The position numbers and the translations under genes are program-made. Below the pieces are notes generated by a model. That model saw nothing but the letters and a program-made list of their open reading frames with translations. It did not search any database and was not told where the DNA came from. A DNA stretch of 32,230 bases, taken from NCBI GenBank assembly GCA_009779405.1, contig WREI01000024.1:1-32230 (forward strand), written 5' to 3'. Positions 5,075 to 27,620 of this stretch are shown piece by piece. Numbering within the stretch: position 1 is the first letter of the stretch; the number at the start of each line of letters is the position of its first letter. This DNA comes from Clostridiales bacterium (GTDB lineage: Bacteria > Bacillota > Clostridia > Christensenellales > CAG-138).

Positions 5075-5103
5075 ATTATAAGGACTTTCGGGTTGCCGCG
5101 CAA
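5075..5103 (-). promoter_or_regulatory. promoter of the helicase gene group
   Basis: On the minus strand TTGCGC (5103-5098), a 17-bp spacer and a perfect TATAAT (5080-5075) stand 26 bases before the helicase ATG. The first three bases of the -35 fall inside the left arm of the inverted repeat at 5101-5238, so the repeat element may supply half of this promoter. Confidence 0.5.
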
Positions 5104-5238
5104 TGTTCAATGCATCAACGCGCAAGGGGCAATGGCGGTGGGGGCAATGCTCAACGCGCAATGTTTTCCTCAATTAAAAAGAGATGCCGGAGACATCTCC
5201 ACAACCATTGTGTGTTGCGCGTTGATACATTGAACATT
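5101..5238. repeat. imperfect inverted repeat, 24-bp arms
   Basis: Arms at 5102-5125 and 5215-5238 are reverse complements with a single mismatch (23 of 24). A partial third copy of the arm motif lies at 5150-5162, and a GAGATG/CATCTC hairpin at 5181-5199. Within the arms, units ending in CAATG or CAACG recur every 7-9 bases. The architecture matches the other inter-genic repeat elements of this window with yet another unit sequence. It fills the gap between the ZIP gene and the helicase. Confidence 0.75.
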
Positions 5239-5254
5239 TCCTTCTCCCTATATC

Positions 5255-5284
5255 TACTGCCTGCTGCCCACTGCCTATTGCCTA
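5255..5284. repeat. heptad array (TACTGCC type, four units)
   Basis: Four consecutive 7-bp units (TACTGCC, TGCTGCC, CACTGCC, TATTGCC) end on the stop codon of the ZIP gene, whose TAG is read from the complementary strand of the last bases. Read in the ZIP gene's direction the units are GGCARTA-like, the same family as the array at 6734-6761 after glmS, which lies in inverted orientation. Confidence 0.8.
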
Positions 5285-6064
5285 TCCCAGCGCCACATCC
5301 ATCACCATCATAATCGCGAAGCCCAGCAGCACGCCTATTGATGCAAGCATTTTATTGTCCCGGAAGGATTCGGGGATCAGCTCCGAACAGACGACGGCGA
5401 TCATCGCTCCGGCGGAGAAGGAGAGGGCCAGGGGCAGGGCGCTGCGCATGCAGAGCGCGAACAGCACGCCGAGTACCCCGGCGATCGGCTCCACAAGGCC
5501 CGAAGCCTGCCCCGCCATAAAACTTTTCATTCGCGAGGCACCGTCGCGGCGCAGCGGCATCGCCACGCACACGCCCTCGGGGAAGTTTTGCAGGCCTATG
5601 CCTATTGCGAGCATCGCGGCGCCCTGTGCGGTTGCGCCCTCTATGCCGAGTGCCGCGCTGCCGAACGCCACGCCGATGGCCAACCCCTCGGGAATGTTGT
5701 GCAATGTCACGGCAACGGTAAGCAAGATGGAGCGTTTTGCCGCCACCCCGTTGCCTGCGGTAGTTTTTGTAAGCAAAATATCGGAGCCGATGATAAAACC
5801 GCCGCCCAAAAGGAAGCCTAAGGCGGAGGAAAGCCAGGCACTGCCGCCCAACTCCGCGGAGAGTTCAATCGCAGGCGCCAGCAGCGACCAGAACGAGGCC
5901 GCGATCATCACGCCCGCGGCAAAGCCCATCATCAGATCCAGAACCTTGCGGTTCATTGTCTTGAAAAAGAAGACCAGGCCTGCTCCGAGTGCCGTGACAA
6001 GGTATGTGAAAAGGGTGGCAAGCAGGCCCTGCCATATGGGTCCCAGCGCGAAAAACCATAACAT
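5282..6064 (-). CDS. ZIP family metal transporter
   Basis: A 260-residue integral membrane protein of the ZIP (zinc/iron permease) family with about eight hydrophobic segments. The diagnostic motif HNIPEGLAIG marks the metal-binding TM4, and QNFPEG supplies the TM5 partner, as in bacterial ZupT-like proteins. The family carries divalent metals such as zinc, iron or manganese into the cytoplasm. I chose ATG at 6064 because it has GGGAG nine bases upstream and leaves the first membrane helix near the N-terminus. An upstream ATG at 6130 would add 22 polar residues and run into the divergent promoter at 6131. The stop codon lies inside the heptad array at 5255-5284. It is transcribed away from the glutamate mutase operon and shares its upstream region. 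Confidence 0.9.
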   Translation of the reverse strand: MLWFFALGPIWQGLLATLFTYLVTALGAGLVFFFKTMNRKVLDLMMGFAAGVMIAASFWSLLAPAIELSAELGGSAWLSSALGFLLGGGFIIGSDILLTKTTAGNGVAAKRSILLTVAVTLHNIPEGLAIGVAFGSAALGIEGATAQGAAMLAIGIGLQNFPEGVCVAMPLRRDGASRMKSFMAGQASGLVEPIAGVLGVLFALCMRSALPLALSFSAGAMIAVVCSELIPESFRDNKMLASIGVLLGFAIMMVMDVALG

Positions 6065-6325: not shown

Positions 6326-6748
6326 ATGGATAAAAGGAAGATCGTGCTGGGCGTTATCGGCTCGGATGTGCATGCCGTCGGCAACAAGATATTGTATCAC
6401 GCGTTTACGGACGCGGGCTTTGATGTGACGAATTTGGGCGTGATGGTCTCGCAGGAGGAGTTTATCGAAGCCGCGGTTGAGACGGCCGCGGACTGCATCG
6501 TCGTCTCCTCGCTCTACGGACACGGCGAGTTGGATTGCCGCGGCCTGCGCGAAAAGTGCGACGAAGCGGGCCTGCACGGCATCCTCCTCTACGTCGGCGG
6601 CAATATCGTGGTCGGCAAGCAGCCCTTTGCTGAGGTGGAAGCCCGCTTCCACGCGATGGGCTTTGACCGCGTGTTCGGCCCCGGCACCAGCCCGGAGGAG
6701 GGGATTGGGGCGTTGAGAGCGGATCTGGGGATGGGCAACAGGCAGTAG
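6326..6748 (+). CDS. glmS: glutamate mutase (methylaspartate mutase) subunit S
   Basis: The small, B12-binding subunit of glutamate mutase (140 residues; mutS in older naming, unrelated to mismatch repair). It carries the base-off/His-on cobalamin signature: Asp14-x-His16-x-x-Gly19 (SDVHAVGNK), Ser61-x-Leu63 and Gly91-Gly92-Asn93. His16 ligates cobalt from below. With GlmE it forms the enzyme that rearranges (S)-glutamate to (2S,3S)-3-methylaspartate. The ribosome site is GAGGAAGGG just before the ATG. The stop codon (6746-6748) lies inside a GGCARTA heptad array, so the last residues (GNRQ) are repeat-encoded. First gene of the glmS-glmL-glmE-mal operon. Confidence 0.97.
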
Positions 6749-6761
6749 GCAATAGGCAATA
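6734..6761. repeat. heptad array (GGCARTA type, four units)
   Basis: Four 7-bp units (GGCAACA, GGCAGTA, GGCAATA, GGCAATA) span the glmS stop codon and fill the glmS-glmL gap. The AATAGG in the last unit is the only ribosome-site-like sequence before glmL. It is the inverted counterpart of the array at 5255-5284. Confidence 0.8.
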
Positions 6762-6766
6762 GTATT

Positions 6767-8080: not shown

Positions 8081-9515
8081 CAAGCGGCTGACGGACGCGG
8101 AATTTGCGGCACAGCGGAGCGAAGTGTTGGAGCAATGGGCGACGGGCCGCGATGTGAATATGGAGGAGGGGATTGCCTATCAGCGCTCCCTGCCCAAAGA
8201 CAAGATATTCTCCCGGCGGCTCTGCAGCGCCAAGGCGGCGGGGACGACCCTCATCCAGCCCCGCGCCGGGGTCGCGCTGGTCGATGAGCATATCCAATTG
8301 CTGCAATATCTGCAAAATGAGGGCGAGGCCGACCTCCTGCCCACGACCATAGACAGCTATACGCGCCTGAACCAATACGGAAAGGCCGAGTTGGGCATTG
8401 CGGAGTCCGTCAAGGCGGGAAAATCCATGCTGAACGGCTTTCCCGCGGTCAACCACGGCGTCGCGGGCTGCCGCCGCATCATAGACGCGCTCGACGCCCC
8501 CGTGCAGGTTCGCCACGGCACGCCCGACGCGCGGCTCTTGGCCGAGATCACCTATTGCGGCGGCTTCACGAGCAACGAGGGCGGCGGCATCAGCTATAAT
8601 ATCCCCTACGCGAAGAACGCGGATCTCATCAAGACGATACGCGACTGGCAGTATGTCGACCGCCTGACGGGCATCTATGAGCAGGCGGGCGCGCCGATCA
8701 ACCGCGAGCCCTTCGGCCCCCTGACGGGTACGCTGGTGCCGCCCTGCGTCTCGCACGCGGTCGCGATCATCGAGAGCCTGCTGGCCGCCGAGCAGGGCGT
8801 GCGCAATATCACGGTCGGCTACGGGCAGTGCGGCAACTTAGTGCAGGACGTCGCGGCGATCAAGACCCTGCAAAACCTGACCGATGAATATTTGCGCAAA
8901 TACGGCTACGGGGACGTGGTCGTCACCACGGTTCCCCACCAGTGGATGGGCGGCTTTCCCCAAGACGAGTCCAAGGCCTTTTCCGTTATCAGCTGGGGCA
9001 GCACGGTGGCCGCATTGGCCCACGCGACCAAGGTTATCGTCAAGACCCCCCACGAAGCGATGGGCATCCCCACGATGGAGGCCAACGCGCAGGGCCTGCG
9101 CTGCACCAAGCAGATGATCTCCATGTTGCGCGACCAGTCCATTGAGGAGCGCGCCATCGCCGATGAATGCGCGCTGATCTTCGCCGAGACCCGCTGTATA
9201 CTGGACAAAGTGTTCGAGCTGGGGGAGGGCGACCTCGCCGTCGGCGCCGTGCGCGCCTTTGCCGCGGGCGTGCTGGATATCCCCTTCGCCCCCTCGCGCA
9301 AGAACGCGGGCAAGCTCCTGCCCGCGCGCGACAACGACGGCGCCATCCGCATCTTCAATCCCGGCAACCTCCCGTTTTCCCCCGACCTCTTGGCCTTCCA
9401 CAAGGAAAAGATCGCTGCCCGCGCAAAGGCCGAAAACCGCGAACCCTCCTTCCAGATGCTGATTGACGACGTGTACGCGATCAGTAAGGGAAGGTTGGTG
9501 GGGAGACCGAAGTGA
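8067..9515 (+). CDS. glmE: glutamate mutase (methylaspartate mutase) subunit E
   Basis: The catalytic large subunit (482 residues, close to the 483 of the Clostridium cochlearium enzyme). It is a TIM barrel that holds substrate and radical. The residues known to bind glutamate are all present at the same positions: Arg66 (LIQPR), Arg100, Arg149 (VRH), Glu171 (SNEGGG) and Tyr177. That agreement supports both the start at 8067 and full activity. With GlmS and adenosylcobalamin it converts glutamate to 3-methylaspartate by a radical carbon-skeleton rearrangement. Its start lies inside glmL. The stop codon is immediately followed by a GGAAAG-type repeat element that separates it from mal. Confidence 0.97.
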
Positions 9516-9593
9516 GGAAAGTTGAAAGAGGAAAGATAGAGTGGGCGGAGAACATGGAAATTCCTTATCTTTCCACTTTCCTCTTTCCTCTCC
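9514..9593. repeat. heptad-arm inverted repeat element (GAGGAAA type)
   Basis: Left arm (from 9514) reads GAGGAAA, GTTGAAA, GAGGAAA, GATA; the right arm (9565-9593), read on the other strand, gives GAGGAAA, GAGGAAA, GTGGAAA, GATA in the same phase. The loop holds a GGAAATTCC palindrome. The left arm includes part of the glmE stop codon. Could act as a processing or pausing hairpin between glmE and mal. Confidence 0.85.
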
Positions 9594-10979: not shown

Positions 10980-12365
10980 ATGGAAGAATTCCGAATACTC
11001 TCCACCACAGCCATTTTAGGCTACGGCTTCCCGCTCGCTTCCTTCGAGGAGGGCATGAGACGCAAGCCGCACCTCATCGCCGTGGACGCGGGGTCGACCG
11101 ATCCCGGGCCATATTATTTGGGCGCGGGGGTTTCGTTTACGGATCGGGATGCCGTGAAGCGCGATTTGGAGATTATGATTGCGGCGGGCGTGGCGCATGG
11201 CATCCCCGTTGTCATCGGCTCGGCGGGCGGCAGCGGCGGTGCGCCGCATCTGGAACGGGACCGGGAGATCATTGAGGAAATCGCGCGCGAAAAGGGCTTG
11301 TCTTTGCGGCTGGCGGTGATTCATTCCGAATTGGACAAGGCGTTTTTGCAAGGCGAATTGCAGGCGGGCCGTATCACCCCCTTGGAACCCGCGCCGCCGC
11401 TCAGCGCCGAGGCGCTGGCCGCCAGTTCCCGCGTTGTGGCGCAGATGGGCGTGGAGCCGTTCCTCGCGGCCCTGCAATCAAACCCGGATGTCGTCCTCGC
11501 GGGCCGCGCCTATGACCCCGCCTGTTTCGCGGCGCTGGCCATCGCGCGCGGTTATGATATGGCACTGTCCCTGCATATCGGCAAAATCTTGGAGTGCGCG
11601 GCCATCTGCGCGGTACCGGGCAGCGGTTCGGACTGCATGTTCGGCTATATCGGCGCGGATTATTTCCGATTGGAGCCCCTCTCGCCCGCGCGAAAATGCA
11701 CAACCCTCTCGGTCGCCGCGCATACGCTCTATGAAAAATCCAACCCCTACATACTGCCCGGCCCCGGCGGCCACCTCGATCTGCACGCTTGCAGTTTTGC
11801 GCAGGAGACGGAGAACACGGTTACGGTACGCGGGACGAAATTCGTGCCGAGCGAGCCCTATACCGTCAAGCTCGAGGGCGCCCGCAGGGTGGGCTATCGC
11901 ACGGTCTCCGTCGCGGGTACGCGCGACCCCGTGATGATTGCCGAGATAGACGCAATCACCGCAGGCGTGCGCGCGCGGGTCGCCGATAATTTCCGCGGCA
12001 AAATAGAAGACTATCACCTGCGCTTTATTATCTACGGGCGCGACGGCGTGATGGCCGATATGGAGCCGCACCCCGTCACCGACAACTGCCACGAGTTGGG
12101 CATTATCATCGAAGCGACCGCCGCCACGCAAAAGGAAGCGGACACGATCTGCGCCTCCGCCCGCTCCACCATGCTCCACTTCGGCTATGAGGGCCGCCGC
12201 TCCACCGCGGGCAACCTCGCCTTCCCCTATTCCCCCAGCGACTTCCACGCGGGCGAAGTCTACGAGTTCAGCGTGTACCACTTGTTGCGGACGGATGAAC
12301 CCGCGGACTTGTTTCCGGTGGAGGTTTTGACTGTGGGCAGTGTGAAGTGTGGAGTGTGTGAGTAG
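10980..12365 (+). CDS. AtuA family protein (DUF1446)
   Basis: A 461-residue protein of the acyclic terpene utilization AtuA / DUF1446 family. It has the glycine-rich N-terminal segments ILGYGFP, IAVDAGSTDPGP and VIGSAGGSGGAPH characteristic of the family, then AGRAYDPA and a conserved middle region. The family has no settled biochemical role; it was named from the citronellol pathway of Pseudomonas. Its place directly after mal and before DUF4387 suggests a role in glutamate/mesaconate metabolism here. A GTG at 10959 is possible, but ATG at 10980 is better placed after AAAGGTG. The last residues (about from 453) are encoded by the left arm of a repeat element. Confidence 0.88.
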   Translation: MEEFRILSTTAILGYGFPLASFEEGMRRKPHLIAVDAGSTDPGPYYLGAGVSFTDRDAVKRDLEIMIAAGVAHGIPVVIGSAGGSGGAPHLERDREIIEEIAREKGLSLRLAVIHSELDKAFLQGELQAGRITPLEPAPPLSAEALAASSRVVAQMGVEPFLAALQSNPDVVLAGRAYDPACFAALAIARGYDMALSLHIGKILECAAICAVPGSGSDCMFGYIGADYFRLEPLSPARKCTTLSVAAHTLYEKSNPYILPGPGGHLDLHACSFAQETENTVTVRGTKFVPSEPYTVKLEGARRVGYRTVSVAGTRDPVMIAEIDAITAGVRARVADNFRGKIEDYHLRFIIYGRDGVMADMEPHPVTDNCHELGIIIEATAATQKEADTICASARSTMLHFGYEGRRSTAGNLAFPYSPSDFHAGEVYEFSVYHLLRTDEPADLFPVEVLTVGSVKCGVCE

Positions 12366-12461
12366 GGGCGGATAGCATCCGCCCGTAGGAATCGAAAGCG
12401 ATTCCAATTAAATAAAAATGCCGCAGGCATTTTCACCTTAACTCCACACTCCATACTCCGT
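12339..12461. repeat. heptad-arm element with three core hairpins (AGTGTGR type)
   Basis: Left arm: AGTGTGA, AGTGTGG, AGTGTGT from 12339 through the AtuA stop codon. Right arm: ACTCCAC, ACTCCAT, ACTCCGT (12441-12461). Between them are three hairpins: GGGCGGAT/ATCCGCCC (12366-12384), GGAATCG/CGATTCC (12388-12405) and AAAATGCC/GGCATTTT (12415-12433), with an A/T-rich linker. The last two are the core pair shared with the elements at 15983, 21915 and 26357. Confidence 0.88.
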
Positions 12462-12485
12462 ACCCCTGCACGAAAGGATCATGCC

Positions 12486-12840: not shown

Positions 12841-14076
12841 ATGAAACGTAGATTGACAGCTATGCTGCTTGTGTTTTTCCTGCTCTGCGGATGCAAACCG
12901 GGGCGCGCCCTGCAACCGAACAATACACCCGCGCCCGCCGCGCCTGCGACGGAAGAAATTGCGGCGCCTGCACCCGCAAATCTTCCCGACCTTTCCGCCT
13001 GTGAAATCACTTTCGCGGGCGACGACGGCGAACAATTGACCATATCCGCCGAACAGTGCGGGCTGTATTCGGACGGATACAATCTGCTCCTCTATGAAGA
13101 ACAGTTCAACGCGCTCTGCGCGCATCTGGCGGGCGAATTCAACCGCGAAGCCGTGGATGCCGCCGCAAATGCCGATGCCGTGAGCTATGCAGAGCCCTTT
13201 ACCGCCACGCCCGCGCAAAGCGGGCGCGAATTGGACAGCACCGCCCTGCGTGACGCGCTCTTGCGACTGGATTTTTCGGCACAGCAAACGCGGATCGAAC
13301 TGCCCTTTGCCGAGCTGCAGCCCGCCGTAAGCGACGATGCCTTGACGCGGGATAGAACCCTGCTGGCGGAGTTTTCGACCTCCTTTGACAGCAGCGGCCT
13401 GAGCAAGAAGGGGCGCGTGCACAACATCACAAAGGCCGCCGAGCTGCTGAACGGCACGGTTTTGCAGCCGGAGGAGACGGGTTCTCTGAACGAGATTCTG
13501 GGCGATCGCAATAAAAAGAACGGCTGGAAAATGGCGAACGCCATCTCGGGCGGCACCTATGTGGAGGAATACGGCGGCGGGGTCTGCCAGGTATCGAGCA
13601 CCCTGTTCAACGTATGGATGCTTGCGGACCTCGAGGTCGTCAAGCGCTATCACCACAGCTGGCCTATGAGCTATGTGGACGCCGGGCGCGACGCGACCAT
13701 CACCACGGACAAGAAGGATTTGGTGTTCAAAAACAACAGTTCCGCGCCGCTCTATATCTTCGCGACCGTGGACGCCGAAGCCAAGACCATCTCCGTCAAG
13801 GTCTACGGTCAAAAAACGGGCGACTGGGCCAGCATCGAAATTGAAACGGAGACCATCAAGGAGCTGCCCGCCGACGACACCATCATCAAATTAGACGAGA
13901 GCCTGCCCCACAACACCAAGGAGGAATTCAAGCGCAAGCGCAACGGCCGCATCACGCGCACCTGGCGCGTCTACCGCGACGCGGCAGGCAACGAAATCGA
14001 TCGCGTCATGTTGTATGAAGACACCTATTCCCCGGTGCAGGGGGTGACGTATGTGTCGGCGGATATTTATTATTAG
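12841..14076 (+). CDS. VanW family lipoprotein
   Basis: A 411-residue exported protein. The N-terminus is a lipoprotein signal with the lipobox LCGC (Cys about residue 20), followed by a Pro/Ala-rich spacer. The VanW core occupies roughly residues 180-335 and has the family hallmarks FSTSF, NITKAAELLNG, EEYGGGVCQVSSTLFN and the YHHSWPMSYVDAGRDATI segment. A C-terminal tail follows with a TRTWRVYRD segment that resembles G5-linked VanW proteins. VanW is named from a vancomycin-resistance cluster, but most members sit outside such clusters and have unknown envelope-related roles. No clear ribosome site precedes the ATG at 12841, which is unusual here. The stop codon is directly followed by a TTCTCAG heptad array. 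Confidence 0.9.
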   Translation: MKRRLTAMLLVFFLLCGCKPGRALQPNNTPAPAAPATEEIAAPAPANLPDLSACEITFAGDDGEQLTISAEQCGLYSDGYNLLLYEEQFNALCAHLAGEFNREAVDAAANADAVSYAEPFTATPAQSGRELDSTALRDALLRLDFSAQQTRIELPFAELQPAVSDDALTRDRTLLAEFSTSFDSSGLSKKGRVHNITKAAELLNGTVLQPEETGSLNEILGDRNKKNGWKMANAISGGTYVEEYGGGVCQVSSTLFNVWMLADLEVVKRYHHSWPMSYVDAGRDATITTDKKDLVFKNNSSAPLYIFATVDAEAKTISVKVYGQKTGDWASIEIETETIKELPADDTIIKLDESLPHNTKEEFKRKRNGRITRTWRVYRDAAGNEIDRVMLYEDTYSPVQGVTYVSADIYY

Positions 14077-14155
14077 TTCTCAGTTCTCAGTTCTCGATTC
14101 TCAGATGCTGAGAGCAGAGCTTGTTGCTTAAATACAGGCAACTGAGAACCGAGAA
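14077..14155. repeat. heptad-arm element (TTCTCAG type)
   Basis: Left arm TTCTCAG, TTCTCAG, TTCTCGA, TTCTCAG (14077-14104) starts on the base after the VanW stop. Right arm CTGAGAA, CCGAGAA (14142-14155) is its complement. The loop of about 37 bases has no obvious second hairpin pair. Confidence 0.85.
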
Positions 14156-14204
14156 CTTATATTATGTGCGTTTTCTGCTTTTCAAGCAGACACGCAGGTT
14201 GATA

Positions 14205-15982: not shown

Positions 15983-16107
15983 AGTGAAGAGCTAATAGTG
16001 AAGAGTGAAGAGTTATCATAGAAATGCCTGTGGCATTTCTTAAATTTAAGAATCGCTTTCGATTCTTTCAACAACTCTTCACTCTTCACTCCTCACTATT
16101 AACTCAT
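15983..16107. repeat. heptad-arm element with two core hairpins (AGTGAAG type)
   Basis: The clearest copy. Left arm: five heptads from 15983 (AGTGAAG, AGCTAAT, AGTGAAG, AGTGAAG, AGTTATC). Right arm: heptads from 16074 (ACTCTTC, ACTCTTC, ACTCCTC, ACTATTA, ACTCATA). The core contains a perfect 9-bp hairpin AGAAATGCC/GGCATTTCT (16020-16040), a TTAAATTTAA linker, and an 8-bp hairpin AAGAATCG/CGATTCTT (16048-16067). It lies between the divergent ytxC and htrA genes, three bases from the ytxC ribosome site. Confidence 0.92.
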
Positions 16108-21914: not shown

Positions 21915-22030
21915 AGTGAAGAGTTAAGAGTGAATAGTGAAGAGTTGCGGTAAGAATCGCAAGCGATTCTTAAAATTAAGGAAATGCCACAGGTATTTCT
22001 ACCATAACTCTTAACTATTCACGATTCACT
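21915..22030. repeat. heptad-arm element with two core hairpins (AGTGAAG type)
   Basis: Left arm from 21915: AGTGAAG, AGTTAAG, AGTGAAT, AGTGAAG, AGTTGCG. Right arm from 22007: ACTCTTA, ACTATTC, ACGATTC. Core: perfect 9-bp hairpin AAGAATCGC/GCGATTCTT (21952-21971), an A/T linker, and near-perfect GAAATGCC/GGTATTTC (21981-21999). The hairpin order is the reverse of that at 15983. It lies between the divergent sigma and binding-protein genes. Confidence 0.92.
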
Positions 22031-22078: not shown

Positions 22079-23149
22079 ATGCGCAATGCAATCAAATGGG
22101 CGGCCCTGCTGCTCTGTGTTCTTATGATAGCGGGCCTGTTTACCGCCTGCGGCGAGAGCAAACCTGCGTCGGTGGATCCGATCGATACCCCGCTTGTGCA
22201 GGTGCCGGAACTGCCCGCCCCGACGCCGCGGCCCGACCTGAAACCCATCGAGCTGCACGAGGTGACGCGCTCCGTGTTCTATGCCCCGCAATATGTGGCC
22301 TGCAGCCTGGGCTATTTCGCCGACGAGGGCTTGGATGTGCGGATCACGACCAGCGGCGGTTCCGACAGGGCCATGACCGCGCTGCTGGCGGGCGAAGCGG
22401 ACTTCGCGCTGGCCGGGCCGGAGACGGCGGTCTATGTCTATAACGAGGGCAAGGCCGACCATCCCGTGATGATCGCGCAGATCACCAAGCGCGACGGTTC
22501 GTTCTTGATAGGGCGCCGGGAGAACCCGGACTTCACATGGGAGGACCTGCGCGGCACTTCGGTCATCGGCGGGCGCAACGGCGGCATGCCCTATATGACG
22601 CTGGTCTGGGTGCTCAATGAATACGGCTTGGTCGCGGGGAAGGATTTGGAAGTGATCGATTCCATCCAGTTCAACCTGATGGCGGGCGCGTTCGAGGGTG
22701 GCACGGGCGACTATGTGACCCTGTTCGAGCCGACCGCGACCGAGTTTCAGAACGCGGGCAAGGGCTTTATTTTGACCAGCATAGGCCTCGACAGCGGCAA
22801 TATCCCCTACACCTGCTATCACGTCGCGCCTTCAACGCTGACAAAGGACCCCGGCACGGTCGAAGCCTTTTTGCGGGCCGTATACCGCGCCCAGCAATGG
22901 CTGATTACGGCGACGGACGAGGAAATCGCGGTGGCCATGCAGCCCTGGTTCCCCGACACCTCGATCGAAAGCCTGACCATCGTCGCCCGGAGCTATCGCG
23001 CCAGCGACGCATGGAAGACCGAACTCGAAATGTTCGAAGAGGACTACAACCGCATGCTCGACGTCATAGAATTCAACGGCCTGTTGACGGGGAGACCTCC
23101 GTTTGGGGAGATATTTGACAGCACGTTGGCGAGGAAGGTGCAAGGCTAA
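22079..23149 (+). CDS. NMT1/SsuA-like ABC substrate-binding lipoprotein
   Basis: A 356-residue exported lipoprotein: N-terminal signal with lipobox FTAC (Cys24), Pro-rich linker, then a periplasmic-binding-protein type II fold of the NMT1/THI5/SsuA group (SVFYAPQYVACSLGYFADEG, then a GGSDRAMTALLAGEADFALAGPE segment). Relatives bind sulfonates, nitrate or thiamine precursors for uptake, and the ligand cannot be told here. The ribosome site AAGGAGG is six bases before the ATG. No permease or ATPase gene lies nearby, so it is an orphan in this window. The stop TAA is directly followed by a GAGGAAA-type repeat. Confidence 0.9.
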   Translation: MRNAIKWAALLLCVLMIAGLFTACGESKPASVDPIDTPLVQVPELPAPTPRPDLKPIELHEVTRSVFYAPQYVACSLGYFADEGLDVRITTSGGSDRAMTALLAGEADFALAGPETAVYVYNEGKADHPVMIAQITKRDGSFLIGRRENPDFTWEDLRGTSVIGGRNGGMPYMTLVWVLNEYGLVAGKDLEVIDSIQFNLMAGAFEGGTGDYVTLFEPTATEFQNAGKGFILTSIGLDSGNIPYTCYHVAPSTLTKDPGTVEAFLRAVYRAQQWLITATDEEIAVAMQPWFPDTSIESLTIVARSYRASDAWKTELEMFEEDYNRMLDVIEFNGLLTGRPPFGEIFDSTLARKVQG

Positions 23150-23220
23150 GAGGAAAGTGGAAAGTGGAAAGTTAAGGCATTTCCATGTTCTTTGCTTGCT
23201 CTATCTTTCCACTATTTTTC
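23150..23220. repeat. heptad-arm element (GAGGAAA/GTGGAAA type)
   Basis: Left arm GAGGAAA, GTGGAAA, GTGGAAA (23150-23170) starts on the base after the binding-protein stop. The right arm (23202-23220) reads back as GTGGAAA, GATA and contains the stop codon of the opposite gene (TAG at 23214-23212). The unit sequence is shared with the elements at 9514 and 24704. Confidence 0.85.
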
Positions 23221-23883: not shown

Positions 23884-23955
23884 AGGTTACAGGGGTTAGG
23901 GGTTAGGGGGCAGGGGGACAGACTACGAATACAGGGTCCTGTCCCCTGTTCCCTG
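23884..23955. repeat. heptad-arm element (AGGGGTT/AGGGGAC type)
   Basis: Left arm from 23884: AGGTTAC, AGGGGTT, AGGGGTT, AGGGGGC, AGGGGGA. Right arm (about 23939-23955) reads back as AGGGAAC, AGGGGAC, AGGACCC. An ACAGG/CCTGT hairpin (23931-23942) forms the tip. The element overlaps the 3' end of the small gene at 23903-24094. Confidence 0.82.
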
Positions 23956-24094
23956 CAATTCTCGCCCAGCCCGAAGCGGCTTCCCGCTTTGTCTTTTCGA
24001 TCAGCTCTTTCGGGCAGAGACCTTTCGTTTCTTCGTAGTTTTCATATCGTATGATATGGATGTCCTCGATGGTAAATCGGTCGCTTGTTTGCAT
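23903..24094 (-). CDS. small conserved-looking protein coupled to Wzz paralogue 2
   Basis: A 63-residue protein. ATG at 24094 has AAGGAG seven bases upstream and lies four bases after the stop of Wzz paralogue 2, so translation is coupled. The first ~45 residues (FTIEDIHIIRYENYEETKG, then CPKELIEKTKREAASG) resemble small proteins seen widely in Clostridia, of the kind with IDDIHKIREENYE, which I know as hypothetical or antitoxin-like. The last ~17 residues, after WARI, are encoded by the repeat element at 23884-23955 and are unlike the rest (CPPAP end), so the original C-terminus was probably replaced. Confidence 0.6.
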   Translation of the reverse strand: MQTSDRFTIEDIHIIRYENYEETKGLCPKELIEKTKREAASGWARIAGNRGQDPVFVVCPPAP

Positions 24095-24098
24095 ATAA

Positions 24099-24731
24099 TC
24101 ACTCCTTCCGCGTGATGCGGGCAAAGAGCAGGACAACCGCGGTCTCGATCAAAACAAGCGCGACGCCCGCAAGCAGCGCAATCAGTGCAGAAGCCAGCAC
24201 GTTTTGCAGGGTTGTGGGGCCCGTGTCTTGCGCGGCGGAAGCGGGTTCAACCATCAGTATGTATATGTTTTCCGCAGTCCACATATCAATTGCCACTTCC
24301 ATGCTGATCTCGGTCAATGCGGCGGCTACGGTCTCGGCGCGTTTCGGATTGGCGGAAGAGACGGATATTTTGGCTACGCGCGTTTCCGGGATTCGCGTTG
24401 CGCGAATGCTGCAATTGTTCAGCTGTTCGATCGTTAGGCCGCAGGCAGCAGCGGTCTGCTCCAATATAGTCCGGGAAGTGACAAGATCAAGGTAATCGTC
24501 GAGAAGGTATCTGGTACCCGTTGGGTCGACGTTTCCGGTGAGATAGGTATTGTCACTCATCTTAAACACCAGCACCTGCGCTTCGCTTGTATAGACGGGG
24601 GCAGCGACAAACTGATAAAAACAGAAGCAACAGATACCCGCCGCCAGTGCGGGCAGCAGTATGAGCAGCCGCTTCCGCCCGCGCAAAATCGCTGCAACAC
24701 GCTCTTTTCTCTTTCCTCTTTCCACTTTCAT
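24099..24731 (-). CDS. Wzz-type membrane protein, paralogue 2, with repeat-derived N-terminus
   Basis: A 210-residue paralogue of the 23212-23862 protein: AAILRGRKRLLILLPALAA aligns with its AILRKWMLLIIILPVLAA, and APVYTSEAQVLVFKM is nearly identical. A second membrane helix lies near the C-terminus (about 180-203), and the kinase-contact tail is missing; the protein ends ARITRKE. The first ~10 residues (MKVERGKRKE) and the ribosome site (GAGGAAAG) are encoded by the heptad array at 24704-24745 and have no counterpart in paralogue 1. Role presumably in surface polysaccharide length control; no glycosyltransferases are nearby. Confidence 0.82.
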   Translation of the reverse strand: MKVERGKRKERVAAILRGRKRLLILLPALAAGICCFCFYQFVAAPVYTSEAQVLVFKMSDNTYLTGNVDPTGTRYLLDDYLDLVTSRTILEQTAAACGLTIEQLNNCSIRATRIPETRVAKISVSSANPKRAETVAAALTEISMEVAIDMWTAENIYILMVEPASAAQDTGPTTLQNVLASALIALLAGVALVLIETAVVLLFARITRKE

Positions 24732-24745
24732 CTTTCCTCTTTATT
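24704..24745. repeat. heptad array (CTTTCCT type, six units) overlapping a start codon
   Basis: Six consecutive 7-bp units: CTTTTCT, CTTTCCT, CTTTCCA, CTTTCAT, CTTTCCT, CTTTATT. The CAT of unit four is the start codon of Wzz paralogue 2 read on the minus strand; the last base touches the stop of the carboxypeptidase-like gene. No inverted partner lies beside it. Confidence 0.88.
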
Positions 24746-26356: not shown

Positions 26357-26470
26357 AGTTAAGAGTTAAGAGTGAATAGTTAAGAGTTGTGGTAGAAATA
26401 CCTGCGGTATTTCTGATTTAATTTGGAATCGCTTGCGATTCCTACCAAAACTCTTCACTCTTCACTCTTA
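26357..26470. repeat. heptad-arm element with two core hairpins (AGTTAAG type)
   Basis: Left arm from 26357: AGTTAAG, AGTTAAG, AGTGAAT, AGTTAAG, AGTTGTG. Right arm from 26450: ACTCTTC, ACTCTTC, ACTCTTA. Core: perfect 9-bp hairpin AGAAATACC/GGTATTTCT (26394-26414), A/T linker, perfect 8-bp hairpin GGAATCGC/GCGATTCC (26425-26442), with flanking GGTAG/CTACC that lets the whole core nest. It ends four bases from the fucO stop codon. Confidence 0.92.
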
Positions 26471-26474
26471 ATTG

Positions 26475-27620
26475 TCAAAACGCCAGTTCGTAAATCTCCG
26501 CCGCGTTCCCCGTATGCAAAGGTCTCGGATTATCCGCCGCGCAGGCGTCCTCCACCGCCATTTTGGCCATGCGCGCGAAGTGCTCACGGGTTACACCCAC
26601 GTCAGACAGGCGTTCGGGTATGCCGACCAATTTGCTGAGCGCGCGGACGGCGGCGACGGCGGCGGCGCGGTACTGCTCCGGCCGCATGGTGGAAGTCTTA
26701 TGCACGCCCATGGCCTTGGCGATGGCGCGATAGCGGTCACCCGTCATCTCCGCGTTGAATTCCATCACATAGGGGAGGAGTATCGCGTTCGCGACGCCGT
26801 GGGGCACATGGTGTATGGCCGAGAGCGGGTGGGCCAGCGCGTGGCAGGCGCCCAGCCCGCAGTTGGAGAAGGCCATGCCCGCAAGGTATTGCCCGAGGGC
26901 CATGTTTTCCCGCGCGATGGGCAGGGTGCAGGAGAGTTTCAGGTGTTTGGCGATGCATTCGACCGCTTGCAGGGCAAAGATATCCGTCATCGTCCAGGCG
27001 CGGCGGCTGCAATAGGCCTCGATCGCATGGGTCAGCGCGTCCATGCCCGTAGCGGCGGCCAAGGACTGGGGCATGCCCGCCATCATCTCGGCGTCGATAA
27101 AGGCGACGCGGGGTATGCAGTTGTCGTCCGCGCAGAGGAACTTGCGCTCCCGCTCCTCGTCGGTAATGACATAGTCAATCGTCACCTCCGAGGCCGTCCC
27201 CGCCGTCGTGGGTACGGCAAACAGGCAGATGCCGCGGTTTTGCGTCTGCCCCACATGCTCCAAACTGCGCACGTCCATGTGCTCGGGATTCGCCACAACG
27301 ATGCTGATGCCCTTGGCGGTATCAATCGGCGAACCCCCGCCGACGGCGACGATAAAATCACAGCCGCTATCGGCAAACTTCTCCGCCCCGTTCTGCACCG
27401 CCCCGATGCTCGGGTTGGGCAATACCTCGTCAAAAATAACATACTCCACCCGACTCGCCTGCAAGGACGCAATCACGGGCCGCAAGGCGCCGAACTTGAC
27501 CAAATTCCGATCGGTGACAATAAAAGCCCGCCGAAAGCGGCGCTCCACCGCTTCCGGCCCGATCTTGGCCACACAGCCATTGCCGAAATACGATTCCGTA
27601 TTGAGAATGATATGATGCAT
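26475..27620 (-). CDS. fucO: lactaldehyde reductase (iron-dependent alcohol dehydrogenase)
   Basis: A 381-residue group III iron-dependent alcohol dehydrogenase, very close in length and sequence to E. coli FucO (382). Motifs: dinucleotide-binding GGGSPIDTAKG (94-104), PTTAGTASEVT (137-147), and the metal site with Asp194 and His198 (GMDALTHAIE), His260 (ACHALAHP) and His274 (VPHGVAN). It would reduce L-lactaldehyde to 1,2-propanediol with NADH, an end step in fucose or rhamnose breakdown. No deoxysugar genes are nearby, so a broader alcohol dehydrogenase role is possible. ATG 27620 follows GGGGAGGG. Confidence 0.88.
   Translation of the reverse strand: MHHIILNTESYFGNGCVAKIGPEAVERRFRRAFIVTDRNLVKFGALRPVIASLQASRVEYVIFDEVLPNPSIGAVQNGAEKFADSGCDFIVAVGGGSPIDTAKGISIVVANPEHMDVRSLEHVGQTQNRGICLFAVPTTAGTASEVTIDYVITDEERERKFLCADDNCIPRVAFIDAEMMAGMPQSLAAATGMDALTHAIEAYCSRRAWTMTDIFALQAVECIAKHLKLSCTLPIARENMALGQYLAGMAFSNCGLGACHALAHPLSAIHHVPHGVANAILLPYVMEFNAEMTGDRYRAIAKAMGVHKTSTMRPEQYRAAAVAAVRALSKLVGIPERLSDVGVTREHFARMAKMAVEDACAADNPRPLHTGNAAEIYELAF

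Follow-up and report, generated by a model that had tools for sequence, protein, structure and literature searches.

In the SPADE survey of prokaryotes (PMC6344855), seven-base words proved to be the commonest kind of tandem repeat between genes, with nothing that clearly points to what they do. A further example is the direct heptads of the word TAACTGA in the Beggiatoaceae (PMC4679880). Like the tandem heptamers of these reports, and like the STRR of cyanobacteria, the repeats that we describe here consist of degenerate 7-base tandem units, are intergenic and are patchily distributed over many phyla (PMC4679880, PMC6344855). However, the earlier reports are mainly of direct arrays, whereas here we find word-matched inverted pairs that enclose hairpins. 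Inverted pairs are known from Xanthomonas where, in the parts of the study that we draw upon, GGGAATC heptads are variable, mostly intergenic and form 70–75 close convergent (inverted) pairs per genome, with prominent inverted pairs beside different genes in two species (Rehm et al. 2015, PMC4692102). Those parts concern a different word, focus on the G-quadruplex and do not describe a conserved hairpin pair between the arms, which is present here. Tandem heptamers and, in Xanthomonas, inverted heptad pairs are already known.

Other described systems are built from hairpins. The small dispersed repeats (SDR) that Elhai reported from Nostoc in 2008 are said to be tiny hairpin elements with compensatory changes, often inside heptameric repeats and with nested insertions; they differ from our elements in phylum and in sequence. 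REPINs, in turn, need a RAYT. The REP/BIME, REPIN and GTAG repeats share with our elements two head-to-head hairpins, heterodimers, an intergenic location, a clover or long-hairpin fold, compensated subfamilies and clustering (PMC3116915, PMC3733652). The hairpin arrangement is thus that of the GTAG REPs and REPINs, but the conserved GTAG and the flanking RAYT are not found: the tag, carried by more than 90% of members of most GTAG REP families (PMC3116915, PMC3733652), is weak, no RAYT is adjacent, and heptad arms are added. A preliminary description of this DNA recognised no described clostridial family and named REP/BIME elements and heptad repeats as the nearest concepts. We judge these to be the right neighbours, and Rfam gave no match at gathering score in the window (the whole 32,230-nucleotide stretch analysed). 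The sequence words of the elements have no match in the literature searched, nor, to the extent that our sources cover the literature on these repeats, did we find inverted heptads of matching words combined with a hairpin pair and a fixed polarity.

The window is contig 24 of a 2.5 Mb genome that is 92.66% complete. The preliminary description held that four of its intergenic elements share one plan, and a direct reading of the sequence finds all four, E1 to E4, with the hairpins as it gave them (Table 1). Each consists of a heptad arm, a GAATCG-type hairpin (hairpin 1), an A/T linker, an AAATNCC-type hairpin (hairpin 2) and inverted heptads, with E2 and E4 oriented opposite to E1 and E3. The hairpins stand head to head across the linker, with stems of about 7–8 bp, loops of 3–4 nt and tags outside. 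The hairpin-2 pattern occurs four times in the window against 0.36 expected from shuffles; the hairpin-1 pattern has four exact occurrences, and its shuffle figure of 2.28 allows two mismatches. All four elements fold, into a four-way junction in E1 and a three-way junction in the others, with DNA z-scores of -6.7 to -10.2, and the arms form the outer stem of the junction in DNA and RNA folds alike. A GC-rich hairpin like the extra one in E1 also lies within a heptad arm elsewhere in the genome (L077 8177).

Table 1. Positions in the window of the parts of E1 to E4 and of three further sites with the same plan.
Feature	Positions	Strand	Basis
E1 left arm, class B heptads (AGTGTGR)	12339..12364	+	sequence; class B family
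E1 extra GC-rich hairpin GGGCGGATAGCATCCGCCC, between left arm and hairpin 1	12366..12384	.	sequence, fold
E1 hairpin 1, GAATCG type	12388..12405	.	sequence, pattern search
E1 hairpin 2, AAATGCC type	12415..12433	.	sequence, pattern search
E1 right arm, inverted class B heptads	12440..12463	-	sequence
E2 left arm, class A heptads	15983..16014	+	sequence
E2 hairpin 2, GAAATGCC type	16020..16040	.	sequence, pattern search
E2 hairpin 1, GAATCG type	16049..16066	.	sequence, pattern search
E2 right arm, 81% complementary to E2 left arm	16073..16104	-	
E3 left arm	21915..21945	+	sequence
E3 hairpin 1	21953..21970	.	sequence, pattern search
E3 hairpin 2, stem with one G-T pair	21981..21999	.	sequence, pattern search
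E3 right arm	22006..22030	-	sequence
E4 left arm	26357..26387	+	sequence
E4 hairpin 2, AAATACC type	26395..26413	.	sequence, pattern search
E4 hairpin 1	26425..26442	.	sequence, pattern search
E4 right arm	26449..26476	-	sequence
GAAAG-type heptad inverted pair, same plan, other word	9514..9591	.	
AGTTCTC heptad inverted pair, same plan, other word	14074..14157	.	
CAATG-type arms around AGAGATGCCGGAGACATCTC hairpin, same plan, other word	5102..5238	.	

The genome-wide covariance-model search that the preliminary description proposed did find further copies. A model built from an alignment of 17 copies matched the genome at least 128 times, counted by strand, with E values of 0.01 or lower. These matches fall at about 82 distinct places, which is a lower bound, because scoring covered the best 150 of 1122 candidates. 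Searching stretches of the genome gave 84 distinct places, each of which was extracted and read by eye; the genome-level work is based on searches and about 350 kb of stretches. The GAATCG-type hairpin GAATCGNWNNCGATTC occurs 36 times in the genome on the forward reading and not at all in the reversed control. The covariance model gave 10 weak matches in the sister species (G001) and, among the other 39 relatives, one weak match in one family member and none in the remaining 38. The exact hairpin pattern is absent from 84,980 species genomes and viral contigs, the source genome and its very near relatives being excluded. All 81 copies that could be placed, using a simple codon-usage gene caller, lie outside predicted genes.

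Compensated stem changes, which were noticed in the four window copies, hold up on 47 two-hairpin copies picked by the covariance model rather than by motif. These have 24 distinct stems in the hairpin-1 slot and 18 in the hairpin-2 slot. Among the distinct stems 83–100% are paired at each position of hairpin 1 and 78–100% at each position of hairpin 2, against 63–85% and 51–90% when partners are shuffled, one invariant A-T pair apart. The third pair of hairpin 2, for example, is T-A in 16 copies, G-C in 17, A-T in 11 and G-T in three. We have shown that the window elements belong to a dispersed intergenic family with compensated hairpins. The hairpin-1 slot may hold AATCG, AACCG, ACAGC or AATTCC types, and some copies carry mutually inverted hairpin-2-type stems in both slots. 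Other copies have a single hairpin, in several a further hairpin (ACCGTGCCGATGTATCGGCAC) stands next to hairpin 1 or to hairpin 2, and in some GC-rich hairpins are nested within the arms. The hairpins are therefore movable modules, whose types are swapped between copies.

The arms differ in length from copy to copy. Their innermost unit is GTTRYGG, closing on CCRYAAC, and they end in AGTTRYGG...CCRYAACT, a junction common to dozens of sites. Class A consists of the words CTTAACT (85), CTTCACT (74) and ATTCACT (65), as read on the right arm, while the fourth combination, ATTAACT, is seen five times against 27.5 expected. Word order inside the arms is random, with 37 identical neighbours against 36.4±5. 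The class of the first heptad agrees between left and right arms in 50 of 52 pairs (41 AA, nine BB and two mixed), yet class A words at equal positions match only as often as permuted ones. The 'complementary heptads' of the preliminary description thus stand as a shared word family and fail as a match of single words: the complementarity of the outer heptads arises because the two arms draw on one family. This shows that the arms share vocabulary and polarity, not base-by-base pairing. That they avoid perfect palindromes is unsupported (longest perfect run 9.50 against 10.22±0.67, p 0.14). As in REP mosaics, the outer end of an arm is often bordered directly by a palindromic repeat rich in GC (GTAGGGGCGAGGCATGCCTCGCCC type; L078 5180-5235, L011, L042, L049, L079 5523, L076 1264 and L089), several copies of which carry a GTAG tag.

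The plan extends beyond this sequence, being shared by many words in both species. Within 202 kb of the source genome we find 43 period-7 tandem arrays, against 0–9 at the other periods from 4 to 14 (1, 3 and 0 at periods 5, 6 and 8), and within 120 kb of the sister genome 32, against 0–6. They use 17 and 18 different word cycles, respectively. For 33 of 43 arrays in the source genome and 20 of 30 in the sister, the same word recurs in an inverted partner within 220 bases; controls gave one and six direct partners, and four and two with the word of another element. On average a spacer contains 1.2 perfect hairpins in the source genome and 1.1 in the sister, against 0.04 and 0.07 when shuffled. 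Purines predominate in the 5′ arm of 39 of 41 pairs overall and of 13 of 14 from the sister, the latter being the fairer figure because the words of the source genome are related to each other. Beyond these species, more than 115 stretches from bacteria of many phyla contain the exact class A array. Inverted partners lie within 250 bases for 15 of 76 of these arrays, against four and one in controls, and 14 of the 15 pairs are convergent, as in the source genome (p 0.001). Sulfurovum, Ruminococcus and other Clostridia have the AGTTRNGG junction followed by different hairpins. The distribution is patchy, as only 12 of 391 genomes in a class-wide sample have the array.

Several other heptad families were encountered. 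One with GAAAG words carries a core motif, AGATAGAGTRRGCGGAGNAYATGGACAT, in place of the two hairpins (window 9514-9591, 23149-23213 and 24702-24742; L061 9538 and 11118; L062 18133; L076 7625). Upstream of a gene at window 23886-23960, GGGTTAG-type heptads are followed by a CTGTCCCCTG inverted arm, and AGGCAGT/AGGCAAT heptads and their complement lie between genes at 6740-6762 and 5250-5285. At two sites of the sister genome (L338 4113-4230 and 6882-6991) heptad arms frame a longer, different palindrome, TCATTCTGAGC...GCTCAGGATGACA.

For 14 element sites the corresponding position was located in the sister, where 11 lack an element (E2, C5:6721, three on C11 and six on contigs 16 and 49) and three have one. 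Most of the empty sites are simply shorter and one holds an unrelated spacer. The occupied sites (C5:5030, C5:8624 and C11:18458) differ from the source genome in words and hairpins; the alignments of C11:18458 and of site 12040 on contig 16 are anchored on one flank only. An occupancy of three in 14 roughly fits the density of arrays in the sister, therefore we claim turnover rather than site conservation and have dropped the idea of conserved orthologous slots. The empty sites could also reflect loss in the sister rather than gain here. MITEs are marked by fixed terminal inverted repeats and a target-site duplication; the present elements have inverted arms of variable length, and at 60–75% identity to the sister a duplication could not be read.

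What kind of element is this? The reading that we favour, and to which we give an even chance, is a REPIN-type DNA repeat, short and non-autonomous. Its two head-to-head hairpins stand on an A/T linker within inverted arms of seven-base words, and it would be spread as folded single-stranded DNA by a putative trans-acting factor, the arms then being remodelled. The unit may expose its two hairpins on the stem formed by the arms, and the factor may cut or copy the folded unit. Slippage and template switching would then reshuffle, lengthen and shorten individual heptads, keeping both arms in one word family and mending the stems to pairing. Present-day movement is not evident: there are no near-identical core pairs among the copies compared, and copies with more similar cores do not have more similar arms (Mantel p 0.21), which gives no support to joint copying of arms and cores. 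With no near-identical copies and arms that do not travel with their cores, movement is either old or followed by fast remodelling. The earlier view that the elements are 'not just recent copying' is borne out to this extent, although the family is still dispersed and the sister sites are mostly empty. The transposase genes also count against a mobile repeat, since the three Y1_Tnp genes of the source genome, two of them RAYT-like, have no heptad array or family hairpin beside them. We reject the idea that Y1 transposases accompany the arrays, as no lag-7 array was found at 21 Y1-bearing loci; three array-bearing genomes have no Y1 match, though their arrays are not full elements. With their GGGGAC/GTCCCC-type ends the two RAYT-like genes (L020 830-1625 and L019 1130-1940) resemble the class that Di Nocera et al. 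describe as flanked by TIRs.

The strongest rival is a purely mutational origin, in which slippage makes the arrays, fold-back template switching inverts them and quasi-palindrome correction mimics compensation, with only the small hairpins being copied around and no mobility of the whole element. The random word order, the dominance of three words over the fourth, arms that agree in word family and not in detail, and a plan common to many words in two species all speak for it. Pure slippage does not explain a period of seven rather than five, six or eight, and it accounts for neither the fixed purine-rich 5′ arm nor the common AGTTRYGG/CCRYAACT junction. We think this origin unlikely, at about half the standing of a mobile repeat.

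More doubtful still is a transcribed element, in the form of a structured RNA, leader or inter-cistronic, through which operon mRNAs would be stabilised or regulated. Co-directional genes flank 56 of the 81 placed copies, which typically fill the tight space from a stop codon to the next ribosome site, often with the arms abutting the two; full copies are in sense more often than antisense (25 to 10, p 0.017), and the RNA folds are strong. However, 18 copies lie between divergent and seven between convergent genes, the orthologous genes of the sister manage without the element, and Rfam has no match. In the transcribed sense G-U pairs are no more frequent than the complementary A-C pairs (5 against 7), which counts weakly against selection on the RNA fold. 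The preliminary description had proposed a selected structure, either RNA or folded single-stranded DNA; of these two a DNA element fits the lack of a G-U excess better.

Least probable is a plain GTAG-REP or REPIN family moved by a RAYT with unrelated simple repeats as flanks, which would suit the head-to-head hairpins with GGTA outside, the same hairpin family in both slots of some copies and the two RAYT-like genes, but which fits poorly with an exact GTAG in the first 8 nt of only 22 of 65 cores and CTAC in the last 8 nt of 24 (GG is found in 61), with Y1 genes that the repeat does not flank, and with arms that are word-matched and inverted and therefore not unrelated flanks.

Tentatively, and with less confidence than we place in the mobile DNA repeat, we propose that many intergenic heptamer arrays across phyla belong, as arms, to a single general class of element, defined by word-matched, convergent arms, a purine-rich 5′ arm and enclosed hairpins, in which the plan persists although words and hairpins change from one sister species to the other. 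If true, this would imply one trans-acting machinery with a 7-base spacing. The source genome and its sister supply a testable anatomy for such a class, namely inverted, word-matched and polarity-fixed arms around hairpins, together with presence and absence at orthologous sites. From the layout we can suggest where at least some of the widespread, unexplained seven-base repeats of bacteria belong, and the heptamer, so far a statistical oddity, would become an element that can be examined for movement and for a binding partner.
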